Of a stretch of DNA of 64,000 bases, positions 13,984 through 30,507 are shown piece after piece (the stretch's first letter is position 1; every line of letters starts with the position of its first letter). The position numbers and the translations under genes are program-made. The stretch spans positions 1,674,001 to 1,738,000 of the forward strand of contig NZ_CP020946.1 in assembly GCF_002208115.1 (NCBI RefSeq), written 5' to 3'. Below the pieces are notes generated by a model, which had not been told where the DNA came from, did no database searches, and saw only the letters and a program-made list of their open reading frames with translations. Origin of the DNA: Bdellovibrio bacteriovorus (lineage in GTDB: Bacteria > Bdellovibrionota > Bdellovibrionia > Bdellovibrionales > Bdellovibrionaceae).

Positions 13984-14382
13984 TTATTTTTCCACCAGAA
14001 ACTTGAAGGTGTCAGATTTACCTTCATAGTCGACTTTGATCTCAAGATTTACGCGGTGGGAACCCTGGAAATCCACAGTCGTGTCGAAAGAATTGGCGTT
14101 GGCGGTAAATTGCAATGGGGCCGCTTTGCCCTTGGGGGACTTGGCAGTGCCGCTGATTTTGATGTTTTTGGTGTCCAGGCTTTCGCCCTCGTGAGCGCGC
14201 GGGAAGAATTGAACCTTGGTTTCGATTGCCAGCATTTCCATATTGAACAGTTTTCCGGTTTTTGGAATACCCCCATGCTGGGCTTTCAAAGTGCCTGGCA
14301 CATCATGGCCTTCATGCGCCATGGCCACAGGGGAGAGGGTCAGTGATGCCAGCAGAATCAGGCTTTTCAGGGTGCGTTTCAT
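13984..14382 (-). CDS. Small periplasmic protein linked to the HME-RND pump
   Basis: The 132-residue product has a signal peptide (LILLASLTLSPVAMA) followed at once by HEGHDVPG and AQHGGIPKTG, a His/HGG motif like that of the other small protein of the cluster. The rest is a compact beta-sandwich-like domain (ISGTAKSPKGKAAPLQF, HRVNLEIKVDYEG). It resembles the free N-terminal domain found in CzcB-type adaptors. Its start overlaps the RND gene stop by 4 nt (ATGA), so the two are translationally coupled and probably act together. Confidence 0.65.
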   Translation of the reverse strand: MKRTLKSLILLASLTLSPVAMAHEGHDVPGTLKAQHGGIPKTGKLFNMEMLAIETKVQFFPRAHEGESLDTKNIKISGTAKSPKGKAAPLQFTANANSFDTTVDFQGSHRVNLEIKVDYEGKSDTFKFLVEK

Positions 14383-17300
14383 GAAAGGACTCCTTGTTTT
14401 TCGTTTTCTTCAATATGTTTTAAAGCGGACTGTTTACCAAACTTCCAGAATATCGCCGGAGTCAGATACATATCAAGCAAAGTGCTGCTTAATAGACCGC
14501 CGACAATCACGATAGCCACCGGATGCAGAATTTCCCGTCCCGGAGCTCCCGGCGAAAGAGCCAAAGGCAGCAATCCAAGAATGGCCGTCAAAGCAGTCAT
14601 CAGAACCGGAACCAGGCGCTCTAAAGAGCCGCGCACGACCATGTGTTTGGAGAACTCCTCGCCCTCGTGCTTCATCAGATGCAAATAGTGTGAAATCATC
14701 ATGATGCCATTGCGGGATGCAATACCACATAATGTGACGAAGGCCACAAGGCTGGCGATGCTCAGAGTGCCGCCCGTTATGTAAATCGCGATGATGCCGC
14801 CAATGAAGGCCATGGGGATATTGAGCATAATCTGAATCGAAATAAAGGTGGATTTGAAATGAGCATACAGAACCAGGAAGATCGTCAGGATTGAGATCAC
14901 TCCCAGAATGGCCATCATATCAGAGGCCTGTTGCTGGCTTTCAAACTGGCCGCCATAAACCACATAGTATCCGGCAGGCATTTCCACTTTGGATTCGATG
15001 TTCTTTCTAATATCGGCAATGATGGCATCCAAAGAACGGTCGGTGGAGTTCGCCTGAACCACGATTCTTCTTTGTGCATTTTCACGCTGGATAATATTGG
15101 GGCCGGTGGATTCGTAAACGTCCGCGACCTTTTCAACTGTGATGCGGCTTCCGTCCGGCATAATTTTCACCGGTGTGCGTTTGATAAGCTCAAGGTCCGT
15201 ACGGGACTTGTCATCAAAACGCATAAACACATCCACTGTCTTATGGCCCTCAAGAATCTGTCCGACCACTTCGCCCTGCAGCGCTTTTTCAAGCAACTGG
15301 GCCAGATCGCCGACCGTGATGCCATAGCGGGCAGCCTCATCGCGCAGAAGATGTATCTTCACCTGGGGAATCAGAACCTGCTGTTCAACCTGAAGGTCGA
15401 CAAGGCCGGGAACATCTTTGATGGCCTGATAAACTTCCGCCCCTTTGGCGCGCAAGGTGGAAAGCTCAGGTCCAAAGACCTTAATGGCAATCTGCGCGCG
15501 CACGCCGGACAGAAGGTGATCCAGGCGGTGAGAAATCGGCTGACCGACGTTCACACCCACGTTCGGGATGGCTTCCAGATTTTTACGAATCTCTTCCAGC
15601 ACCACTTCGCGGGGGCGGCCTTCGTCTTTAAAGTCCACTTCAATTTCCGAAGTGTTCACGCCCTCGGCGTGTTCATCCAGTTCGGCGCGTCCCGTTCGGC
15701 GCGACACGGTCACGACTTCCGGAGTTTTTAGAACGATCAATTCAGCCTGGGTTCCAATTTTATTGGACTCTGCCAAAGAGATTCCCGGGGGAGCCACAAC
15801 GCTGATCATCGCCGAGCCTTCATTAAAGTGCGGCAGGAAGTCGCGTCCGATGATCAGAGACAATGCGATCGAGCCGGCAAACAGCAGGCCGGAGGCCCAC
15901 AGAACTGGCTTTGGATTATCCAGGGTTTTGTTAAGCAGCTTTTCCTGATGTTTTTTCAGCCAGCGCACCAAGGCGCCGTCTTTATGTTCCAGCAGTTCGC
16001 CTTTGGAAAGGAAGTACGAACACAGCGCCGGAGTCACGGTCAGCGAAACCACCATGGAGGCCAGCAGTGAAACGATGTAAGAAATCCCGAGTGGTACAAA
16101 CAGGCGGCCTTCAATTCCACCCATGCTAAACAGCGGCACAAACACCAGCACCACAATCAAAGTCGCAATGACGATGGAGTTACGAACCTCTGACGAGGCC
16201 TCATAAATCACTACCAGAGGATTGCGGGGATTCGCCAGAAGTTTGTTCTCGCGAAGGCGGCGATAGACGTTTTCCACGTCGACAATGGCATCGTCCACCA
16301 GCTCACCGATGGCAATGGCCAGCCCCCCCAGGGTCATGGTGTTGACGGAAAGATCAAAGAACTTAAACACGATGGCTGTCAGAACGAAAGACAGGGGAAT
16401 GGCTGTCATCGTGATCGCCGTTGTGCGGAAGTTCATCAGGAACAGGAACAGAACGATGAAGACCAGGAACACCCCATCGCGCAGGGCCATTTTTACGTTG
16501 TCGATGGCGGTCTCAATGAACAAGGACTGTTTGAAAAGGTTGGGTTGCAGCTCGACACCCGCAGGAAGAGTGGTGGCGAACTGCTTTAAGGCCTCGTCGA
16601 TTTTTTCTGTCAGCTCCAAAGTGTTGGCGCCGGGCTGTTTTTGAATGGAAAGAATAACCCCGGGTTTTCCGTTGATGCTGCCGTCACCGCGTTTGGTTTG
16701 CGGGCCTTCAACGACGTCAGCGATTTCTTTGACCAGAACCGGGCGGCCCAGATGCATGCCGACGACCGAGTTCATGATCTCTTCCTTTTCCTTTACCGCG
16801 CCGATGTTGCGGATCAGGAACTCCTGTCCTTCAAGATCAATAAAACCGCCGGTCGAGTTTTGCGATACATCTGAAAGGTTGTGTTCAACCTCGTCCATGG
16901 TCAGTTGCAGCTTTTGCAATTTTTCTGCGGAAATCAGAATCTGATACTGGCGGACTCCGCCACCAATGGAGATAACCTGCGACACGCCCGGAATGCTCAT
17001 CAGGCGGGGGCGCAGTGTCCAGTCAGCCAGAGTGCGCAGATCCATGCCGGACACCTTGTTGTCAGGTGAACTTAAACCCACAAACTGGATTTCGCCCATA
17101 ATGGATGAAATGGGTCCGAGGGTGGGGGAGATGTTCTTAGGCAGCTTTTCTTTGGCCAGAGCAATTTTTTCCTGAACCATCTGGCGGTTGCGATAGATGT
17201 CGGTATCCCAGCCGAACTCAACATAGATCACACTGAGTCCCACGCCTGAAGAAGACCGAACTCGTTCGACTCCGGGCAGACCATTCAGGGCGGTTTCCAG

Positions 17301-17504
17301 CGGGAAGGTGACCAGGGTTTCGACTTCTTCCGGAGCCAGGCCATGGGCTTCCGTCATAATATTAACGGTGGGGCGATTCAGATCTGGAAAGACGTCCACT
17401 GGCAGATGAACCAGGGCCCAGCCTCCATAGGCCACCATTAAAGCAGCGACTGCGATCACAATGAGACGATGAGTCAGAGAGTATTTAATAATTCTATCAA
17501 GCAT
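14379..17504 (-). CDS. Heavy-metal efflux RND transporter (CusA/CzcA family)
   Basis: The 1041-residue protein has the RND layout: TM1, a large periplasmic domain, TM2-6, a second periplasmic domain, and TM7-12. The N-terminus (FPDLNRPTVNIMTEAHGL, EEVETLVTFPLETALNG) is that of heavy-metal RND pumps. The TM4 motif reads GELVDDAIVDVENV, the subtype with paired acidic residues rather than the DFG of Zn/Co CzcA. It moves metal from periplasm or cytoplasm through TolC. Unusually, no membrane-fusion protein gene is present beside it. A CsoR-like palindrome lies 25-45 nt upstream of the start. The ion is probably copper, inferred from the divergent csoR-copA. Confidence 0.85.
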   Translation of the reverse strand: MLDRIIKYSLTHRLIVIAVAALMVAYGGWALVHLPVDVFPDLNRPTVNIMTEAHGLAPEEVETLVTFPLETALNGLPGVERVRSSSGVGLSVIYVEFGWDTDIYRNRQMVQEKIALAKEKLPKNISPTLGPISSIMGEIQFVGLSSPDNKVSGMDLRTLADWTLRPRLMSIPGVSQVISIGGGVRQYQILISAEKLQKLQLTMDEVEHNLSDVSQNSTGGFIDLEGQEFLIRNIGAVKEKEEIMNSVVGMHLGRPVLVKEIADVVEGPQTKRGDGSINGKPGVILSIQKQPGANTLELTEKIDEALKQFATTLPAGVELQPNLFKQSLFIETAIDNVKMALRDGVFLVFIVLFLFLMNFRTTAITMTAIPLSFVLTAIVFKFFDLSVNTMTLGGLAIAIGELVDDAIVDVENVYRRLRENKLLANPRNPLVVIYEASSEVRNSIVIATLIVVLVFVPLFSMGGIEGRLFVPLGISYIVSLLASMVVSLTVTPALCSYFLSKGELLEHKDGALVRWLKKHQEKLLNKTLDNPKPVLWASGLLFAGSIALSLIIGRDFLPHFNEGSAMISVVAPPGISLAESNKIGTQAELIVLKTPEVVTVSRRTGRAELDEHAEGVNTSEIEVDFKDEGRPREVVLEEIRKNLEAIPNVGVNVGQPISHRLDHLLSGVRAQIAIKVFGPELSTLRAKGAEVYQAIKDVPGLVDLQVEQQVLIPQVKIHLLRDEAARYGITVGDLAQLLEKALQGEVVGQILEGHKTVDVFMRFDDKSRTDLELIKRTPVKIMPDGSRITVEKVADVYESTGPNIIQRENAQRRIVVQANSTDRSLDAIIADIRKNIESKVEMPAGYYVVYGGQFESQQQASDMMAILGVISILTIFLVLYAHFKSTFISIQIMLNIPMAFIGGIIAIYITGGTLSIASLVAFVTLCGIASRNGIMMISHYLHLMKHEGEEFSKHMVVRGSLERLVPVLMTALTAILGLLPLALSPGAPGREILHPVAIVIVGGLLSSTLLDMYLTPAIFWKFGKQSALKHIEENEKQGVLS

Positions 17505-17528
17505 AGGTCTACTTTAATGCCTCCGCAC

Positions 17529-17548
17529 ACCCTACTAGGAGGGGGTAT
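17529..17548 (-). promoter_or_regulatory. Candidate CsoR operator for the RND operon
   Basis: The string ACCCTACTAGGAGGGGGTAT has the G-tract/C-tract pseudo-palindrome and terminal GGGGGTAT of CsoR operators. It sits 25-45 nt upstream of the RND start codon. The same GGGGGTAT end appears in the operator on the csoR side. Confidence 0.55.
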
Positions 17549-17594
17549 CCGGCCTTGTGACAATCCGAGGAAAAATATTTTTCTTCAAGGCCCC

Positions 17595-17625
17595 TTGAAA
17601 TACATACCCCAGGGGGGTATATACT
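17595..17625 (+). promoter_or_regulatory. csoR-copA promoter with embedded CsoR-like operator
   Basis: A -35 TTGAAA (17595-17600) and a -10 TATACT (17620-17625) are separated by 19 bp. The palindrome ATACCCCAGGGGGGTAT (17604-17620) fills the spacer and touches the -10. Repressor on this site would block polymerase, and copper-loaded CsoR would release it; this is inferred from known CsoR promoters. Confidence 0.7.
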
Positions 17626-17647
17626 GGAACTGAAATCGAGGTGTGTC

Positions 17648-17929
17648 ATGAAAAAAGAATCCGGTCAGCATCCCGACCACAGTGGTCATTTAAAGCGTCT
17701 CAACCGTGTCCGCGGTCAGTTGGATGGCATTCAGAACATGATCGAAGAACGTCGTTATTGTCCTGACATAGTTTTCCAGATCCGCGCGGCCGCAAAAGCG
17801 CTGCAGGCGATGGAAAATGAGATTATGCGGACCCATGTCCACGGTTGCGTAAAGACCGCGATCAAATCCAAGGACGAAAAAGAAATCTCTAAAAAAATCG
17901 ACGAGATCATGAATCTCGTCAGTAAGTAG
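17648..17929 (+). CDS. csoR: CsoR-family copper-sensing repressor
   Basis: The 93-residue all-helical protein belongs to the CsoR/RcnR (DUF156) family. The Cu(I) ligands of CsoR are visible with correct spacing: Cys38 (RRYCPD), His63 and Cys67 (THVHGC), i.e. 25 and 4 residues apart, as in the CsoR type rather than the RcnR nickel/cobalt type. It is divergent from the RND operon and precedes copA by 6 bp, so it probably autoregulates and controls both units through the two palindromes between them. Confidence 0.9.
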   Translation: MKKESGQHPDHSGHLKRLNRVRGQLDGIQNMIEERRYCPDIVFQIRAAAKALQAMENEIMRTHVHGCVKTAIKSKDEKEISKKIDEIMNLVSK

Positions 17930-17935
17930 GTCGTT

Positions 17936-20110
17936 ATGGAAACACAAAACAACAGTACCGAGTTGCAACTTATTGGCATGTCCTGTGTGAATTGTGCAGG
18001 CAAGATTGAAAAGACATTAAATGGTTTGCCGGGTGTGACGGCAACAGTGAACTTTGCCACAGAAAAAGCCCAGGTGAATCTGGGGGACAGTCCCCTGACA
18101 GTTGAAAACCTGATTAAAACCATCCAGGAGTTGGGGTATCAGGCTTTTGAAGTGAACTCAGAAGTCGACGCCCAAAAGCTGAAAGAGGAGGCTGCGGCTG
18201 AGTACCGCAAAGAACTGCGTCTGTTCATTATCTCAGCGATTCTGACGGCGCCCTTTCTGGTTGAGATGGCCGTGATGCTGAGTGGGGCGGGTCATGAAAT
18301 GATTCCGCGCTGGGTGCAGTGGATTTTGGCGACGCCGGTTCAGTTCTGGGTCGGGTGGAGATTTTATCGTGGATCTTATTACGCCTTGAAGTCGGGCAGC
18401 GCCAATATGGATGTGCTGGTGGCCTTGGGGACGACGATGGCATATGGCTTGAGTGCGGTGATGACGGCCATGAGCTGGCATCATCATCACGTTTATTTCG
18501 AGGCCAGCACTGCGGTCATTACCTTGATTCTGCTGGGTAAGTTAATGGAAAGCCGCGCGAAGGGGAAAACCTCGGAAGCGGTGGAAGGTCTGCTGCGCCT
18601 GCAGCCGAAAAAGGCCATGGTGGAAAGAAACGGCGAAGTGGTTTCTTTGGATATCAGCGAACTGGTGGCCGGTGACATCGTGGTGGTGAAAAATGGCGAA
18701 TCCATTCCGGTGGATGGTGTGGTGGTGCAGGGACTTTCGACTGTGGATGAGTCGATGCTGACCGGCGAAAGTATGCCGGTACAAAAGGCTGTCGATGATC
18801 ACGTTTATGCAGCGACTCTGAATCAGGATGGCAGTCTGCGCATTAAAGCCACGGGTGTGGGCAGCAAGACTCAGTTAGCGCAAATCATTAAGATAGTGAC
18901 GACGGCTCAAGGTTCGAAAGCTCCTATTCAGCGTCTTGCGGATAAGATTTCAGCGGTCTTTGTGCCCGTGGTCGTTGCTATCAGCGTGCTGACATTCTTT
19001 GGGACCTGGCTGTGGACCGGGGATTTGACGATGGCGTTTATTTCGTCCGTTTCGGTCCTGGTTATTGCCTGTCCGTGTGCTTTGGGTTTGGCAACGCCGA
19101 CCGCCGTGGTTGTGGGAATTGGCAAGGGCGCTCAGGCCGGAGTTTTGTTCCGCGACGCCAAAGCCTTGGAGCTGGCCGAAAAAATTGATGTTCTGGTCTT
19201 GGATAAAACCGGCACTATCACGGAAGGAAAGCCCGTGGTCACAGAAATTCATGTGACTTCCGGTCAGGATAAAAAAGAGGTGCTGACTTTTGCGGCAAGT
19301 CTTGAGGCGGGATCGTCGCATCCTTTGGCTCACGCTATTTTGGAAGAAGCCAAAAAAGAGGGATTGTCCCTGGTTCAGGTTGAAAATTTCCAAAGCGTGA
19401 TGGGGCAGGGTGTGGAAGGCCGCATTCAGGGACGCTCACTGAAGCTGGGTAAGAGCGGCTGGGTGGCGCCGGAGTTTTCCTTGAATCAGGAGCTTTTAAA
19501 GACTCTTGAATCCAAAGGTCAGACTTTGATGGTGCTCGCGGATGACGCTCGTGTCCTGGGGTATATCGCGGTGGCCGACCGTATCCGTGAAAGCTCGAAA
19601 GAAGCCATCGCCGATATTCAAAAGCGCGGTGTGAAAGTCATGATGCTTACCGGGGACAACGAAGGCACTGCCAAAGAAATCTCCCGTCAGGCAGGAATCA
19701 CTGACTACAAACACAGCGTGAAACCCGCCGACAAAGCCAATGTCATTGTGACCCTGAAACGCAAAAAACTGCGTGTGGCGATGGTGGGTGACGGTATCAA
19801 TGATGCTCCGGCATTGGCGATGGCTGATGTCAGCTTCTCCATGTCTTCTGGAACTGATATTGCGATTGAAACTGCAGATGTCACTTTGATGAAGAATGAT
19901 CTGAAGTCCGTGGCGCAGGCCATTGAACTGTCACATCTGACATTAAAGAAAATCCGTCAGAACCTGTTCTTTGCTTTCATCTACAACGTTCTGGGGATCC
20001 CACTGGCCGCATTAGGAATGCTCAACCCTGTCATCGCAGGGGCGGCCATGGCCATGAGCTCAGTCTCTGTAGTCAGCAACTCGTTGTTGCTGAAAAGAAA
20101 GAAGATCTAA
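17936..20110 (+). CDS. copA: Cu(I)-translocating P1B-type ATPase
   Basis: CopA pumps Cu(I) from the cytoplasm to the periplasm. The 724-residue protein has one N-terminal HMA domain with GMSCVNC (Cys17, Cys20), eight predicted membrane helices, the ion-binding CPC at 379-381, the phosphorylated Asp423 in DKTGT, the SSHP motif of the N-domain, and [11 protein letters not shown] in the hinge region. A His-rich loop (WHHHHVY, about 181-187) between early helices is a further possible metal contact. It lies 6 bp after csoR and forms a two-gene operon. Confidence 0.93.
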
Positions 20111-20123
20111 AAGAACCAGGAAC

Positions 20124-21713
20124 TTATTTTTCTTTGGTTTTGATGTAGGCTTCGCGCAGCCAGAGGCGGATGTGTTTTAGATAGTAGTCTTTCATTCCGA
20201 AGAAGACGAAGTGGTTCAGGAAGTAGTTTCCGCCACCTTTGTCTTTTTCGGTGTAATTCACGGTGCCGATGATTTCCGGGGTTTCCAGTTCTTCCGGGCG
20301 CCACAGGACGAATTCACGGAAGGCCCCGATACTGATCTCGCGATAGTATTTCATGATCAAGCCCGCTTCGGAAATCTGGGTGATCTCAACGGGATTGGCC
20401 ACTTTCAGGGCGCTGCTGTCCTTGCGGCTGGCGATAGTGGTTTCGGTTTTGTTCACCAGCGAAGTTTTTGTCTTCAGCAGTTTTTTGAATATGTAAGTTT
20501 TGTCCAGCGGGGTGAAGAAAATTTCTTTGGTCCATGCGGACAAGGCCTTTACCTCATCAATGATCAAACGCTTGCGAGAGATCATGTAAAGCTCCGGGGC
20601 CTCGCTGAATTCCTGGTTGTAGATTTTGCAGCGATCTTTCAGGTATTGCTGAATCTGTTCCCATTTTTTCTGTTTTTCAATTTCAAAGTCAGCATAGTTC
20701 ACAAAGACCATGTCAAACTGGGCCGGCAGCTCCTGGCGGTTCGGAGTTTCCTTGTTGGCAAGATCTGACAGCAATTGGCCAAAGTTGGAATAAGTGAAGA
20801 CTTCGGTGTTTTCAAATCTTTCTGCCAGAAAGGTTTTCATTTCGATGGCCAAAGGCACATCTTCATCCAGCACCAGAATGCGGTTCTTGTTACCCAGAGA
20901 GTTTTTGATTGGTTCCTGAGAATGAGTTTTGTCCGTCAGGATATTTTTTCGAATCTGGCTGAGCTGCTGGTTGTCAGCGCCGAAGAACATGAATTCACAC
21001 AGAAACTCTTTCGGAGAGATTTCTTTGCACGAGTGGCAGTACGCCAGCACCGAACGCTTGTGGTCCGTGGTGAAGGATTCGCTGTAATACTTGGTCATGG
21101 CACCAATGCGAATCTCGTGGTTGTTGATGGTGGTAAAGCCAATTTCGCTGATGCTGTGAAGCTCAACTTCTTTCAGCATTTCGATGGTTGAGCTGATCTG
21201 CATGGAGGCCACGGCGGTGGAGCTGACCGGGTGGTGGCCTGACAGGGCAAACTCCAGATGCTGGCGCAGAATCAGTTTGTCGAAGGGTTTAAAGATCACA
21301 TTGTTGATAATGCGCTCTTCAGCCAGAGAGATATCAAAATCCGGGCTGTCAAAAGCCGTGATGATCAGGGCTGTGGGTTCTTGTGCCGAGCACATTTTCT
21401 TGCGCAGGAAGAACTCACGGGCGCGTTTGATCAGGCCCATGTTCTGCACGCCCAGGAATTCGTTTTTGGCGATCACCAGGCGAAGTTCGTGGGTGCTTGC
21501 GGGTGTCACATCCGGAGACGTGTCATCAGCATGGCGACGACCGCCGCCAGCCAGTGCTTTTGGCCCCTCAGTAACCGAAATTTTCAGCCATTCGTGGAAT
21601 TCAGCCAGGTTCAGGAAAAAGCGAATAGAAAGCCCGGAATCTATGCTTTTTAAGGTCTCAAATAGATCCTTCTGTATGCGTTCATCATCTTCCAGGACAT
21701 AAATGAACTTCAT
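20124..21713 (-). CDS. Duplicated pseudo-receiver / PilZ-like protein
   Basis: The 529-residue cytoplasmic protein has a repeated architecture: receiver-like (1-157, with an insert at about 50-75), PilZ-like (170-260), receiver-like (277-415), PilZ-like (440-520). Repeat signs are ISEIGF/ISEAGL and FMFFGADNQQLSQIR/FVFFGMKDYYLKHIR. Receiver 1 keeps EDDE and Lys142 (FKPFD) but has no Asp at the phosphorylation strand (RLVIAKNEF). Receiver 2 has Asn339 (VFVNY) there and Thr401 instead of Lys. The PilZ-like parts have an SxxG turn but I see no RxxxR. So neither phosphorylation nor c-di-GMP binding is assured. Convergent with copA, 13 bp apart. Confidence 0.6.
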   Translation of the reverse strand: MKFIYVLEDDERIQKDLFETLKSIDSGLSIRFFLNLAEFHEWLKISVTEGPKALAGGGRRHADDTSPDVTPASTHELRLVIAKNEFLGVQNMGLIKRAREFFLRKKMCSAQEPTALIITAFDSPDFDISLAEERIINNVIFKPFDKLILRQHLEFALSGHHPVSSTAVASMQISSTIEMLKEVELHSISEIGFTTINNHEIRIGAMTKYYSESFTTDHKRSVLAYCHSCKEISPKEFLCEFMFFGADNQQLSQIRKNILTDKTHSQEPIKNSLGNKNRILVLDEDVPLAIEMKTFLAERFENTEVFTYSNFGQLLSDLANKETPNRQELPAQFDMVFVNYADFEIEKQKKWEQIQQYLKDRCKIYNQEFSEAPELYMISRKRLIIDEVKALSAWTKEIFFTPLDKTYIFKKLLKTKTSLVNKTETTIASRKDSSALKVANPVEITQISEAGLIMKYYREISIGAFREFVLWRPEELETPEIIGTVNYTEKDKGGGNYFLNHFVFFGMKDYYLKHIRLWLREAYIKTKEK

Positions 21714-21756: not shown

Positions 21757-22104
21757 TTAAGGACTGCGAAAAATGAAATAAACCGCCCCCACAAGGCATA
21801 GGCCCGCCCAGAGGAAGTCCAGCTTCAGGGACTGTTTCATATAGAGAACCGAAAAGCCCGCAAAGACCACCATGGTGATCACTTCCTGCATGATTTTAAG
21901 CTGTGGCAGGGAATAGTAATCAGAGCCCAGGCGGTTGGCCGGAACCTGAAACACATATTCAAAGAAAGCCACGCCCCAACTGATCAGAATCACCAGCCAC
22001 AGTGCCGAGGACTTCAGAGTCTTCAGATGACCGTACCAGGCAAATGTCATAAAGATGTTGGAAATGATCAGCAGACCAATAGGGGCAATAGCGTTATTCA
22101 TCAT
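21757..22104 (-). CDS. DUF486/DMT-like small membrane protein
   Basis: The 115-residue product has four hydrophobic helices and the sequence ISNIFMTFAWYGHLK, AFFEYVFQVPANRLG and LPQLKIMQEVIT, characteristic of the DUF486 (COG3169) family of half-size DMT-like proteins. Function is unknown. The start at 22104 overlaps the stop of the upstream Na/Pi cotransporter gene as ATGA, so it is probably translated by coupling. Confidence 0.8.
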   Translation of the reverse strand: MMNNAIAPIGLLIISNIFMTFAWYGHLKTLKSSALWLVILISWGVAFFEYVFQVPANRLGSDYYSLPQLKIMQEVITMVVFAGFSVLYMKQSLKLDFLWAGLCLVGAVYFIFRSP

Positions 22105-23708
22105 GACTGGGACCTTTGATTGTAAGCATGGTTGCACAGAAGACTTGCGATACGACGGTATTCACTCAGCAGATCCAGGTGAATGGAGCTGGTGTTGATC
22201 GACGTGTTCAAGCCACGGTTCAGACGACTGATATGGTTTTCACGCAAAGAGATCTCGGTTTTTGCCAGGTCCCGCTTCAACTGAATGGCGGCTTCCGCCA
22301 GCTCTTTATTCTGATAGGCATTGATGGCCATGGAGGCCACTTTCACCACTTGTTCGTGCATTTGACGGATCTCTGCCCAGCCTTCATCAGAGAACTCCAG
22401 TTTCAGGGCGTTCTTTTTGATCGCCAGGGCCAGGATGTTGATGTCAATGGCGTCTGCCGCACGCTCAACGTCACTCAGGAACATAATCATGTTCATGACG
22501 TTCTGATGTACCACTGTGGTGGATTTGTTCGCGTGGTCCAGAAGGAACATCTTGGTTTCGCGATAAAGGAAATCGACCTTGTTGTCGCGGTCCTTGATAG
22601 AATCAAAGTCTTTCGGGTCATTCGTTTCAAACAAACGAAGGGAGTCCTTGATCATGCCCAGAACAATGTCCGCCGTGCGCATGATTTCGCGGTTGGCATA
22701 AGAGATGGCCAGAGCTGAACTTTGATAGTTGTTCATGTTCACGAACTCGGTTCCAAATTCTTCAGAGGCTGCTTTCGGGAACATCTTTTCGATCAGTTCA
22801 GCACCCTTGTTGATGAACGGGAAGAAGATGATCGAAGACAGGACGTTGAAGATCAGATGCGCGTTGGCGATCGACCGGGACTGGGTGGTGTCAAATGTCA
22901 TCAGGAAGTCGATAAAGATCTGCGTGAATGGATAGAAGATCACCACGCTCAATGTTTTATAGAAGAAATGCGCCCAGGCCACCTGGCGGCCGATGTAGTT
23001 TCCACCGGCTGCGGCAATCAATGCCACAGAAGTCGTTCCGATGTTCGCACCATACACCCACAGCATGGCATCATAGAAGGTGATCGCTTTGACGGTTGCC
23101 AAACTCATGGCAAGACCAATTGTTACAGCCGAACTTTGCACGAAGGCACAGAACACCACAGAGATCAGCAGGGAATATCCAGGGTTGTCACGCAGGCTTT
23201 GGAAAACCTCGGTCAGCATTGGATTTTCAGCAAAGTGATGGGAGGAAATCGAAATCAGCTTCATCCCGAAGAACAGCAAGCCAAACCCCATAAAGACCAG
23301 GGACAGGTTCTTGAAGACTGTTTTCTTGGCTTTGAAATAGAATGCAAATGCCACGGTGAACACTGGCAGGGCGTACTGGGTCAGATCCAAAGAGATCAAT
23401 TGAACCGTCAGGGTCGTACCGATGGCGGTTCCGATAATCACGCCCATCACCTGGCGCAGGTTGACCACGCGGGCAGAGCCCAAACCGACCAGCATGGACG
23501 TCACCGCCCCCGAGCTTTGCATCAGGGTGGTCAGAATCACCCCGGTCAGGATGGCCAGAAATTTACTTTGCGAAAGATGATTCAAGAGGCCGGTGATTTT
23601 TCCGGCCATCAGTTTCTCCAAAGAGCTGGAGGCCATGCTCATTCCGTAAAGGAAGAGTGCCACCCCGCTGACGAGGAGAATGAAGTACGAGTTGCCCGAG
23701 TCGATCAT
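22101..23708 (-). CDS. Na+/phosphate cotransporter with PhoU-like C-terminus
   Basis: This 535-residue protein belongs to the NptA/YjbB Na/Pi cotransporter family. The membrane half has the inverted duplication with QSSGAVTS and QSSAVTIG, the paired QSS motifs that form the sodium/phosphate site. After about residue 320 the protein becomes a soluble helical PhoU-like domain (REIMRTADIVLGMIKDSLRL, DVERAADAIDINILA). It moves phosphate across the inner membrane; direction (import or efflux) is not clear, and YjbB-like members export. It is cotranscribed with the DUF486 gene. Confidence 0.88.
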   Translation of the reverse strand: MIDSGNSYFILLVSGVALFLYGMSMASSSLEKLMAGKITGLLNHLSQSKFLAILTGVILTTLMQSSGAVTSMLVGLGSARVVNLRQVMGVIIGTAIGTTLTVQLISLDLTQYALPVFTVAFAFYFKAKKTVFKNLSLVFMGFGLLFFGMKLISISSHHFAENPMLTEVFQSLRDNPGYSLLISVVFCAFVQSSAVTIGLAMSLATVKAITFYDAMLWVYGANIGTTSVALIAAAGGNYIGRQVAWAHFFYKTLSVVIFYPFTQIFIDFLMTFDTTQSRSIANAHLIFNVLSSIIFFPFINKGAELIEKMFPKAASEEFGTEFVNMNNYQSSALAISYANREIMRTADIVLGMIKDSLRLFETNDPKDFDSIKDRDNKVDFLYRETKMFLLDHANKSTTVVHQNVMNMIMFLSDVERAADAIDINILALAIKKNALKLEFSDEGWAEIRQMHEQVVKVASMAINAYQNKELAEAAIQLKRDLAKTEISLRENHISRLNRGLNTSINTSSIHLDLLSEYRRIASLLCNHAYNQRSQS

Positions 23709-27486: not shown

Positions 27487-30400
27487 ATGCTGAATACGGT
27501 ACGTAACACCAAAGGTAATATTTTGCTGCAAATTCTCGCGGCCACCGCGGTGATGAGCACGTCCTTTTACTTTCTAACGAATTACGTGATCGGGCAAAGG
27601 CAGCAGGTCAGTAAGACCTCCAACGTCGTAAACCTGCGATTTGCTTTGAACAGTGCCATGGATTACGTGATTTTCGGGGTCCGTCAGAAGTACTGCTTCT
27701 CCAGCGACAATCTGCTGATGAATGACCTGGGGGCTGAGTGTAACCTGGCGCACACGGGAAGTGTTGAGCGTCTGATTATGTCCACTGAGCAGGAAAACTT
27801 CATTCGTCAGTTGGTGAATGACGGAAAAAATGTGGGCCCGCTGGAGTCCAACGCGCTGACTCAGAACAAGATTCGTCTGAAAACAATTGTGCGCCTGCTG
27901 GAAGTTGGCAAGGCAACAACAACGCATCCCTTATTCCCTGTCCTTGAAAGCTTAAAAACAGTTCGCAATGAAAACGGTGAAGTTGTCAAAGTCGCAGCTA
28001 TTCGTGTGACGTTGACTCGCAATGAAAGCATCAACCTGCCAAAGGCAGGTCGTGAGGTGTATGTTGATTCCCGTGTCGATCTGGTGGATTCCCTTGGCAA
28101 TGTTAAGCCGATTAAAGTGGGCAATAAAGAGCTAAGTCTGAAATCCCAGATCGTTATTTACCCGCGTGAGGTGGGATCTTTTGCCTTGCTAGTGCCGCAG
28201 GATCTGTACATGGACCGCTCGTGGGATTCGCCGATGAATGCCGGGGATGTGGCTTTGCACAAGTTCTCCAGCCGCAAAGAAATGGCGGGAAGCTCTGGCC
28301 TTGTTTTCCAGAGTCCGGTGTTTGTAAATCGCAATATCTATTTGCCTACGGATGAGTCGGGTGATGATGCTTCTCCGGATTCCATCAATTATGCCGGTGT
28401 GACGTTTGCTGACCGGGTGTATATGGGGAACGGTGATATCATGACTTCCAAAGGGAAGTTTTCGCCGAGATCCTCGGGCCAGATGGGAGACCGTTTCTGG
28501 GCGGATGTTCGCACCTTTGGGGGATTCCTCAAAGGGGTTGAAAACGACGGGGGGCTTGATGCCGGTCTCGTCTATCTTTCTGATAAAACCAAAAGCATTA
28601 ATGTTGATAAAACTTTGATGGCCAAGTGTCAGGACATGAGCACCAAGCAGGCGGATAAAACCAGCGTTTACCGTTCAGAGTTGGGCGCTCGCAGGACCGA
28701 TGACGGCTATAATGAAGCCGATTACCGTCTTTATCTGTCGAACTGGAACTATTTCAGTCGTCAGAGTAATGCCCTGCAGGTCGATAAAACAAGATGGGGT
28801 AACGGAAAAGTCGAGGTCGACTCCAATGATTACAATGATGCGGTCGTGAAGATTATGCTGGCCGTGGGTGATCGCGTTGTTGAGGCCCAGTTGCCTCGCA
28901 CGGGGTCTGTGACCTTCACTCCTGAAGTGGGATCTGCGGCATTTGAATCCGCGTTGAGGAGCAAAGTCAAAGCCTCTCAGACGACTTATGATGCTGCTGT
29001 AAAGGCGGAATCCGATCTGACTGACTCCCTGGCTTCTTATCGTGCGGATCTTAAGGATAAAGAGGCTGATCTTTCCGCTGAAATGGCTAAACCCGTGAAG
29101 GGCAGTCTTGCTGGTGGCAGCACAGGCTCCGGATCAGGTTCTGGCACGGGTACCGGCACTGGTACTGGAAGTGGCACCGGCAGCGGTGGCACTAAGACAG
29201 TTGAAAAAACTTTGGAATCAGAATCGACAGTGGAAGATTCTGGCGTAGCGGACTCAGGCTCTGGTTCCGGTTCCGGCTCCACAGGTACGGGCGGAACCAA
29301 AATTGACTATCGCGATGAAAAACTCGTGGCAGAGCTGGAAAGAGCAATCAGTGATCTTAAAAAAATTATCAGCGATTTGAACAATAATAAAATTCCGGCC
29401 CAGTCTTCGGTGGTGAATCTGGCATCCAAACAACTGGATACAGACAAAACTGCTTTGAATACTTATGAGCTGCAAAAAGCCAATCCGCCAAAAATTACGG
29501 TGGAGGTTTCCAAGGCTTCTAACGCCTATTACTTTGACAAGCTCAATCTGGAAGTGTCTGCGAAAAACGTGCAGAACATGATTGATAAAAACGGGAACTA
29601 TTCTGAACCGGTCATCGGTGTTCAGGCCTACGACAGTACATACTATAAAAGTAACCCGATCGATCCAAAGAACGAGAACACCAAATTGTTGGGTTACATC
29701 AACATGACCTTCAATAATAACAAGACCCAGTTGAATTTCCCTTCGAATATTTCCCGCGAACCAAAAGGCGGATCAGCGGTTCAATTGGCCGAGGACAATG
29801 ACCTTGAGACCATGATGACCGAATGTTCGAAAGCCTATGGTACGATGACCTCGGCTTCCTTTGGTGGTGCCGGCTGGGATGTCAGCTTTGCGCCTACTGC
29901 ACGAACCTCCTGGAACTTTGCGGGGGCGGATGACAGCAAGGATATGAAGGCCGACCCGGCATTGGCCACTTTTGAGTTCGACAACATGACCCAGGCAAAT
30001 GCGACCTTCCAGGTGCGCTCTATCGTCGGGAAATGTGTGATCAAGGCCAGTACGACTTTTGTTACCGGCTTTATGACCTGTGATGAACTTCACATTGAGG
30101 CCAGAAGTGCTCCTCTAAGAATTATCGGGACCTTTATTGTGGGTCGAATGAAAATTCATCCGACCGCCATCAAATCCGGGATCAACTGGAGCAGCGTCTA
30201 TCATCCTCAGGCCACCCGCGAATTGCGAGCGGCAGGAAATCCACGAATTCTTCGTTCATTCAGTGGCACGGACTGTAATGCGACCAGCAATGAACCTATT
30301 TGGCATCCCATCCCTTCAATCAAGGCCGTGGCCGATCGTATGAATTGCAATACGATCAGTCTTCGTGCCAAGGCTGATCCATTCCAGTGGACTTCAGTGG

Positions 30401-30507
30401 ATCCGGATTGTGGTATTGCGGCGGGAACCATGGCATCCAACACCACATGTAAACGCCGTTTGGTTCGATTCTTCGTGGTTGAACAGTCCCGCGAGGGAGG
30501 TATTTAA
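27487..30507 (+). CDS. Giant pseudopilin-like protein with coiled coils and Gly/Ser/Thr linker
   Basis: The 1006-residue product begins like a type IV pseudopilin: a basic leader ending KG (Gly10), then a hydrophobic helix (NILLQILAATAVMSTSFYFL). Position +5 of the mature chain is Gln, not the usual Glu, as in PilX/GspK-type tip pseudopilins. A globular domain of about 450 residues follows, with Cys70 and Cys85. A coiled-coil-like segment (about 490-535) leads into a Gly/Ser/Thr low-complexity linker (about 539-605), then a second Lys/Glu/Leu coil (606-670). The C-terminal domain contains several Cys and a right-handed-helix-like SAPLRIIGTFIVGRMKI. PilX-like role is inferred. TAATG overlap with the next gene. 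Confidence 0.7.
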   Translation: MLNTVRNTKGNILLQILAATAVMSTSFYFLTNYVIGQRQQVSKTSNVVNLRFALNSAMDYVIFGVRQKYCFSSDNLLMNDLGAECNLAHTGSVERLIMSTEQENFIRQLVNDGKNVGPLESNALTQNKIRLKTIVRLLEVGKATTTHPLFPVLESLKTVRNENGEVVKVAAIRVTLTRNESINLPKAGREVYVDSRVDLVDSLGNVKPIKVGNKELSLKSQIVIYPREVGSFALLVPQDLYMDRSWDSPMNAGDVALHKFSSRKEMAGSSGLVFQSPVFVNRNIYLPTDESGDDASPDSINYAGVTFADRVYMGNGDIMTSKGKFSPRSSGQMGDRFWADVRTFGGFLKGVENDGGLDAGLVYLSDKTKSINVDKTLMAKCQDMSTKQADKTSVYRSELGARRTDDGYNEADYRLYLSNWNYFSRQSNALQVDKTRWGNGKVEVDSNDYNDAVVKIMLAVGDRVVEAQLPRTGSVTFTPEVGSAAFESALRSKVKASQTTYDAAVKAESDLTDSLASYRADLKDKEADLSAEMAKPVKGSLAGGSTGSGSGSGTGTGTGTGSGTGSGGTKTVEKTLESESTVEDSGVADSGSGSGSGSTGTGGTKIDYRDEKLVAELERAISDLKKIISDLNNNKIPAQSSVVNLASKQLDTDKTALNTYELQKANPPKITVEVSKASNAYYFDKLNLEVSAKNVQNMIDKNGNYSEPVIGVQAYDSTYYKSNPIDPKNENTKLLGYINMTFNNNKTQLNFPSNISREPKGGSAVQLAEDNDLETMMTECSKAYGTMTSASFGGAGWDVSFAPTARTSWNFAGADDSKDMKADPALATFEFDNMTQANATFQVRSIVGKCVIKASTTFVTGFMTCDELHIEARSAPLRIIGTFIVGRMKIHPTAIKSGINWSSVYHPQATRELRAAGNPRILRSFSGTDCNATSNEPIWHPIPSIKAVADRMNCNTISLRAKADPFQWTSVDPDCGIAAGTMASNTTCKRRLVRFFVVEQSREGGI

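Follow-up and report, generated by a model that had tools for sequence, protein, structure and literature searches.

A 64,000-nucleotide stretch of the Bdellovibrio bacteriovorus genome (hereafter the window), which lies within a single contig of 3.77 Mb, contains a minus-strand gene for a 529-aa protein with two receiver (REC) and two PilZ-like domains arranged in alternation. The gene, its domains and its neighbours are listed in Table 1. A chance origin of the open reading frame was rejected. No conserved operon partner or motility-gene neighbour was found outside the genus, and the gene is probably an orphan regulator. Elsewhere in the window, positions 13984-20110 hold an apparent metal-efflux block, comprising the P-type ATPase of Table 1 (plus strand) and an RND-type transporter gene (14379-17504, minus strand). 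At 27487-30507, a 1006-aa reading frame has a pilin-like N-terminus and central Gly/Ser/Thr-rich repeats (GSGSGTGTG...).

Table 1 Features of the tandem REC/PilZ-like gene and its neighbours (window positions; residue numbers refer to the encoded protein)
Feature	Position	Strand	Basis or remark
Whole gene, tandem pseudo-REC/PilZ-like protein, 529 aa	20124..21713	-	Exact ATG-to-stop ORF
REC1, residues 1-159	21237..21713	-	E8/D9, T119 and K142 retained; K83 at phospho-Asp position
Lys83 codon, REC1 phospho-Asp position	21465..21467	-	Profile alignment to intact REC; Lys in 21/23 genus sequences
PilZ-like domain 1, residues 166-268	20910..21218	-	Profile comparison and Pfam matches of relatives
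SISEIGF, residues 187-193, SxxG turn of PilZ-like domain 1	21135..21155	-	Motif
FMFFGADNQQLSQIR, residues 241-255, PilZ-like domain 1	20949..20993	-	Motif
REC2, residues 272-420	20454..20900	-	D283/E284 and S379 retained; N339 for phospho-Asp, T401 for Lys
Asn339 codon, REC2 phospho-Asp position	20697..20699	-	Profile alignment to intact REC
PilZ-like domain 2, residues 430-529	20127..20426	-	Most conserved part: W518, R516, G506
QISEAGL, residues 446-452, SxxG turn of PilZ-like domain 2	20358..20378	-	Motif
FVFFGMKDYYLKHIR, residues 502-516, PilZ-like domain 2	20166..20210	-	Motif
DMT_6/DUF486 membrane protein, upstream neighbour	21757..22137	-	43 bases before the gene; linkage in the genus only
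Na/Pi cotransporter-PhoU protein	22101..23708	-	Neighbour conserved in the genus only
Copper-type P-type ATPase, convergent downstream neighbour	17936..20110	+	Not part of the system

Taken alone, the 529-aa sequence matched nothing in Pfam, NCBIfam or the PDB chains, so its domains are visible only through its relatives. Within the single sequence, alignment of the two halves scored z = 12.7 and that of the PilZ-like parts z = 11.9, values equalled by none of 500 shuffles; a likeness between REC1 and REC2 was undetectable at this level (z = -0.5). Profile-profile comparison over 74 family members gave probabilities of 99.5% for the two PilZ-like domains and 98.8% for the two receivers, against less than 1% in cross-domain controls. 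REC1, REC2 and the REC of a single-unit paralogue encoded in the same genome matched one another at 97-99% (97-98% for the family receivers against the paralogue), and both PilZ-like parts matched the C-terminal half of that paralogue at >99%. The tandem receiver and PilZ-like repeats proposed in the initial annotation are upheld by this homology, and the ISEIGF/ISEAGL and FxFFGxxxxxLxxIR motifs that it listed are present in both halves, the latter as F-M-FFG-ADNQQ-L-SQ-IR (241-255) and F-V-FFG-MKDYY-L-KH-IR (502-516). As judged from the profiles, the protein is two REC-PilZ-like units placed back to back.

The identity of the domains was examined through the same relatives. Among 68 family members, the commonest Pfam match was Response_reg (15 of them), and solved receivers were among its profile matches in the PDB. 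For the PilZ-like pieces, PilZ was the sole recurrent Pfam family (17 of 129, best E 1.1e-4; the runner-up had 2), and their profile matched the 18 ordinary PilZ domains encoded in this genome (E 1.8e-7, compared with 0.26 or worse for receiver controls). Together, the recurrent matches and this alignment identify the PilZ-like parts, at the level of sequence, as divergent PilZ domains. A PDB profile search with these parts returned chance matches only. An AlphaFold model of the whole protein, built from only 3 aligned sequences, was unreliable (pLDDT 42.7), and a model of PilZ-like domain 2 from only 6 sequences reached a pLDDT of 53.6, with a strand-strand-strand-strand-helix order; a Foldseek search with this low-confidence model gave no match. 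The REC and PilZ fold assignments come from the sequence profiles.

The single-unit paralogue provides a frame for reading what the tandem protein has lost. It is a 229-aa protein (L078 1000-1689, also in L002; G000:C1:366760) with a weak match to the query, and it shares with the tandem protein the domain order, the SExG and F(F/V)G...IRxWI motifs and the absence of RxxxR. It differs in having one unit only, a complete REC (D8, D9, D52, T and K105; Pfam Response_reg 8.8e-24) and an adjacent kinase: its gene starts 1 base after that of a hybrid histidine kinase with a receiver of its own (L002 21-1929, G000:C1 about 365500-367200). With its complete REC beside a hybrid kinase, the intact unit looks like an ordinary two-component output, as far as its residues and gene order indicate, and the single-unit form is likely to be ancestral.

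Aligned with the complete receiver of the paralogue, REC1 has Lys83 and REC2 has Asn339 at the phospho-Asp position. The initial annotation had reported this residue as missing from both receivers, with Asn339 in the second, and had named a phospho-Asp recovered by proper alignment as evidence against its reading; none was found in either receiver. All 23 genus sequences have E8, T119 and K142, 22 have D9 and 21 have Lys at position 83. At position 339, 18 have Asn and none has Asp. The REC2 pocket Lys is absent from all 23 (T401 in the window protein, the REC2 of which retains D283, E284 and S379). Across the 74 members, the complete five-residue pocket occurs in one REC1 and in no REC2. The one member with all five REC1 residues (L062 1328-3241, first 150 residues) may, judging by its pocket, still be open to phosphorylation.

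Several distant branches of the family keep Asp at position 83 or 339, usually then without the acidic residue at position 9 (or 284). Of 34 sequences with Lys or Arg at position 83, 32 have an acidic residue 9, compared with 6 of 33 sequences lacking Lys or Arg; the rows share descent, and counted on the tree the pairing amounts to about four independent pairs, for which a sign test was not significant. The pairing suggests that Lys83 could form a salt bridge with the acidic pocket. One Bdellovibrio genome (G004) carries two tandem copies (L019 and L089); the second shares 45% identity with the query and has other residues in place of Lys83 and Asp9.

The complete or near-complete conservation of E8/D9, T119 and K142 within the genus, together with a complete-REC paralogue abutting a hybrid kinase, would fit a residual response regulator that uses a different residue for phosphorylation or activation, or that pairs with an intact receiver. 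We regard this as very unlikely, however: it is established that Lys cannot stand in for Asp in the aspartyl-phosphate pathway, neither receiver has the Asp in the genus, and the rest of the pocket degenerates in the wider family. From the pocket residues, we infer that neither receiver would be phosphorylated.

The canonical c-di-GMP site was likewise absent from the PilZ-like domains. Neither part of the window protein contains RxxxR, and no convincing case at the PilZ position was found among the 74 members, in which chance RxxxR matches fall mostly in the REC helices (L018 and L047 are borderline); the motif is present in 14 of the 18 ordinary PilZ domains that this genome encodes. In the (D/N)xSxxG motif, both parts retain SxxG (SISEIG and QISEAG) and have lost the D/N position, in agreement with the earlier description of a kept SxxG and no clear RxxxR. 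By these residues, neither barrel is predicted to bind c-di-GMP canonically. The claimed loss of c-di-GMP residues holds for the canonical PilZ site and does not extend to c-di-GMP binding through a different set of residues, which is found in some pseudo-receivers of Caulobacter (PMC10333796).

Such binding is the main rival to an adaptor role. The protein would then be a cyclic-dinucleotide sensor, with c-di-GMP or 3',3'-cGAMP held by the pseudo-receivers or the PilZ-like barrels through residues other than RxxxR. Consistent with this, REC1 has a basic helix α3 (LIKRAREFFLRKK) that is conserved in the genus, c-di-GMP is bound by pseudo-receivers in Caulobacter (reviewed in PMC10333796), and Bdellovibrio produces both c-di-GMP and 3',3'-cGAMP, according to one report (PMC9140294). 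The basic helix is, however, poorly kept in distant members and the canonical PilZ site is missing family-wide, and we consider a sensor of this kind unlikely.

Of 60 near genomes, 54 contain a relative of the tandem protein, as do 96 of the 127 genomes of the order Bdellovibrionales; most of these relatives have the same tandem plan, and the PilZ-like profile is almost restricted to this order. An orthologue in another genome (G006, 2118845-2120431) is 92% identical. Comparison with two close relatives gave dN/dS values of 0.03 and 0.05 (0.03-0.06 overall), low in all four domains; conservation is highest in the PilZ-like parts and in β5-α5 of REC1 and lowest in REC2. That the residues defining catalysis and ligand binding have gone could in principle mark a decaying gene without function, but the selection test refutes this: such low dN/dS in every domain shows purifying selection and not decay, and the reading frame is intact nearly order-wide. 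We give decay a negligible probability.

A second type of PilZ gene was encountered in the same genomes. In the window genome, a subtilisin-like protease with a membrane stretch carries an ordinary C-terminal PilZ domain with RxxxR (L103 1-1806, G000:C1 about 1338900-1340750), and a similar frame of 600-700 aa is the top PilZ match in most genomes of the order. At three loci (L139, L155 and L159), such a protease-PilZ gene lies convergent to, and directly beside, the tandem REC-PilZ gene. This adjacency was rejected as a functional link, being seen in one taxonomic family only.

Many relatives carry an insert within REC2. In 38 of the 74 members, 119-231 aa occupy the α2-β3 position at which the query has 19 aa (residues 318-336). 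PAS_3 was the only recurrent Pfam match of this insert (4 of 38, best E 9.3e-5) and its best PDB match was a PAS histidine-kinase chain (E 0.0049), on which grounds we call it, with moderate confidence, a putative PAS-like domain. It is absent from the window protein and its genus. On the tree, its presence requires 6 changes, which may be gains or losses. Three members (L093, L091 and L054) have an insert of comparable size in REC1, where the linker stretch reaches 134-169 aa, with a PAS_9 match at E 0.021 in L093; some relatives may, by these matches, have PAS-like domains in both receivers.

Distribution across the order offered a further lead. Of 112 flagellin-positive genomes, 109 had at least one domain of the family, compared with 0 of 15 flagellin-negative genomes (n = 127; Fisher p 7e-17, with descent disregarded), and the flagellin-positive carriers include genomes of only 1.9-2.5 Mb. 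The three flagellin-positive genomes that lack the family all belong to one other taxonomic family. All 15 flagellin-less genomes are reduced genomes of a single taxonomic family, in which ordinary PilZ proteins are also fewer, so the link to motility is a lead and not a proof. A link to type IV pili is unsupported, since PilM is universal (127 of 127 order genomes), as is one to chemotaxis, since CheW is absent from many genomes that carry the family.

These data are suggestive of a tie between the tandem protein and flagellar motility, and the protein might more specifically be a brake or adaptor at the flagellar motor or pole, like YcgR or the CheY-like Cle proteins, with partners or PAS, and not c-di-GMP, as the regulator. 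The flagellin distribution, extending to the smaller genomes and independent of both CheW and PilM, speaks for such a role, and PilZ proteins commonly affect motility (PMC8316039). Against it, every flagellin-less loss falls in one reduced lineage and may go back to a single event, the family is missing from three flagellin-positive genomes, and no motility genes are conserved as neighbours. A motor or pole function is, on balance, possible but doubtful.

Our best reading, held with about even confidence, is that the protein is a cytoplasmic adaptor blind to both phosphorylation and c-di-GMP, perhaps linked to motility; its role as an adaptor or scaffold and its cytoplasmic location are both inferred. 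In the proposed mechanism, the starting point would be an intact unit in which a histidine kinase phosphorylates the receiver and the receiver acts through the PilZ-like β-barrel. Duplication of this receiver-PilZ unit would have given rise to a signalling adaptor. In the family, the phospho-Asp or other pocket residues have gone from both receivers, and RxxxR, the c-di-GMP site, is absent from both barrels. Lys83 probably occupies the acidic pocket, where it would permanently replace metal and phosphate and so hold the receiver in a single state. Output would be by protein-protein contact, with the barrels, their C-terminal helices (FFG...L..IR.W) and the β5-α5 edge of REC1 as the probable conserved working surfaces. 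In relatives with a PAS-like domain nested in REC2, this domain could provide the signal instead; it is absent from Bdellovibrio.

Known proteins offer partial parallels to such an adaptor. PixA of Myxococcus xanthus likewise joins one PilZ domain to one receiver; it functions in motility without c-di-GMP binding and is active in its D180N form (PMC8316039). Its activity without c-di-GMP binding and in this non-phosphorylatable form shows that REC/PilZ proteins can act without either input. It differs in that the PilZ domain comes first and the receiver last, in a single copy, and in that PixA keeps RxxxR and Asp180 and binds c-di-GMP in vitro (PMC8316039). PilZ proteins that lack the binding site (type IV pilus PilZ and xPilZ) also act without c-di-GMP, by protein contact where this is known (PMC10333796, PMC8316039), but they stand alone or are paired with other PilZ domains and do not alternate with receivers. 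The Caulobacter pseudo-receivers are receiver-like and thought to be phosphorylation-independent (PMC10333796); there the receiver itself binds c-di-GMP, whereas the window protein has Lys or Asn in place of Asp and its receivers alternate with PilZ-like domains.

Pseudo-receivers, PilZ domains without RxxxR and REC/PilZ fusions are each already known separately. An order-wide tandem of both degenerate forms, with Lys for the phospho-Asp and a receiver-nested PAS-like domain, was not found in the literature searched, which covered few subscription papers. The minus-strand orientation, the conserved Lys substitution, the order-wide conservation, the kinase-adjacent paralogue and the PAS-like insert were also absent from the initial annotation. 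In its broadest form, which we offer as speculation and think improbable, the family would be an order-wide Bdellovibrionales regulator: a duplicated two-component output that was cut from phosphorylation and canonical c-di-GMP, was rewired through Lys-locked pseudo-receivers and a REC2-nested PAS domain, and controls either the flagellum or the predatory cycle, perhaps in response to another ligand such as 3',3'-cGAMP.

Bdellovibrio has few c-di-GMP enzymes (PMC3271064) but many PilZ proteins, with 18 Pfam matches in the window genome. Because the tandem protein is invisible to Pfam and NCBIfam, it has probably been missed in earlier PilZ counts. One genome holds a clean evolutionary pair: a kinase-adjacent, intact REC-PilZ unit, and a duplicate version without the phosphate and c-di-GMP sites that is nevertheless strongly selected. 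This pair makes the role of PilZ domains without c-di-GMP directly testable.
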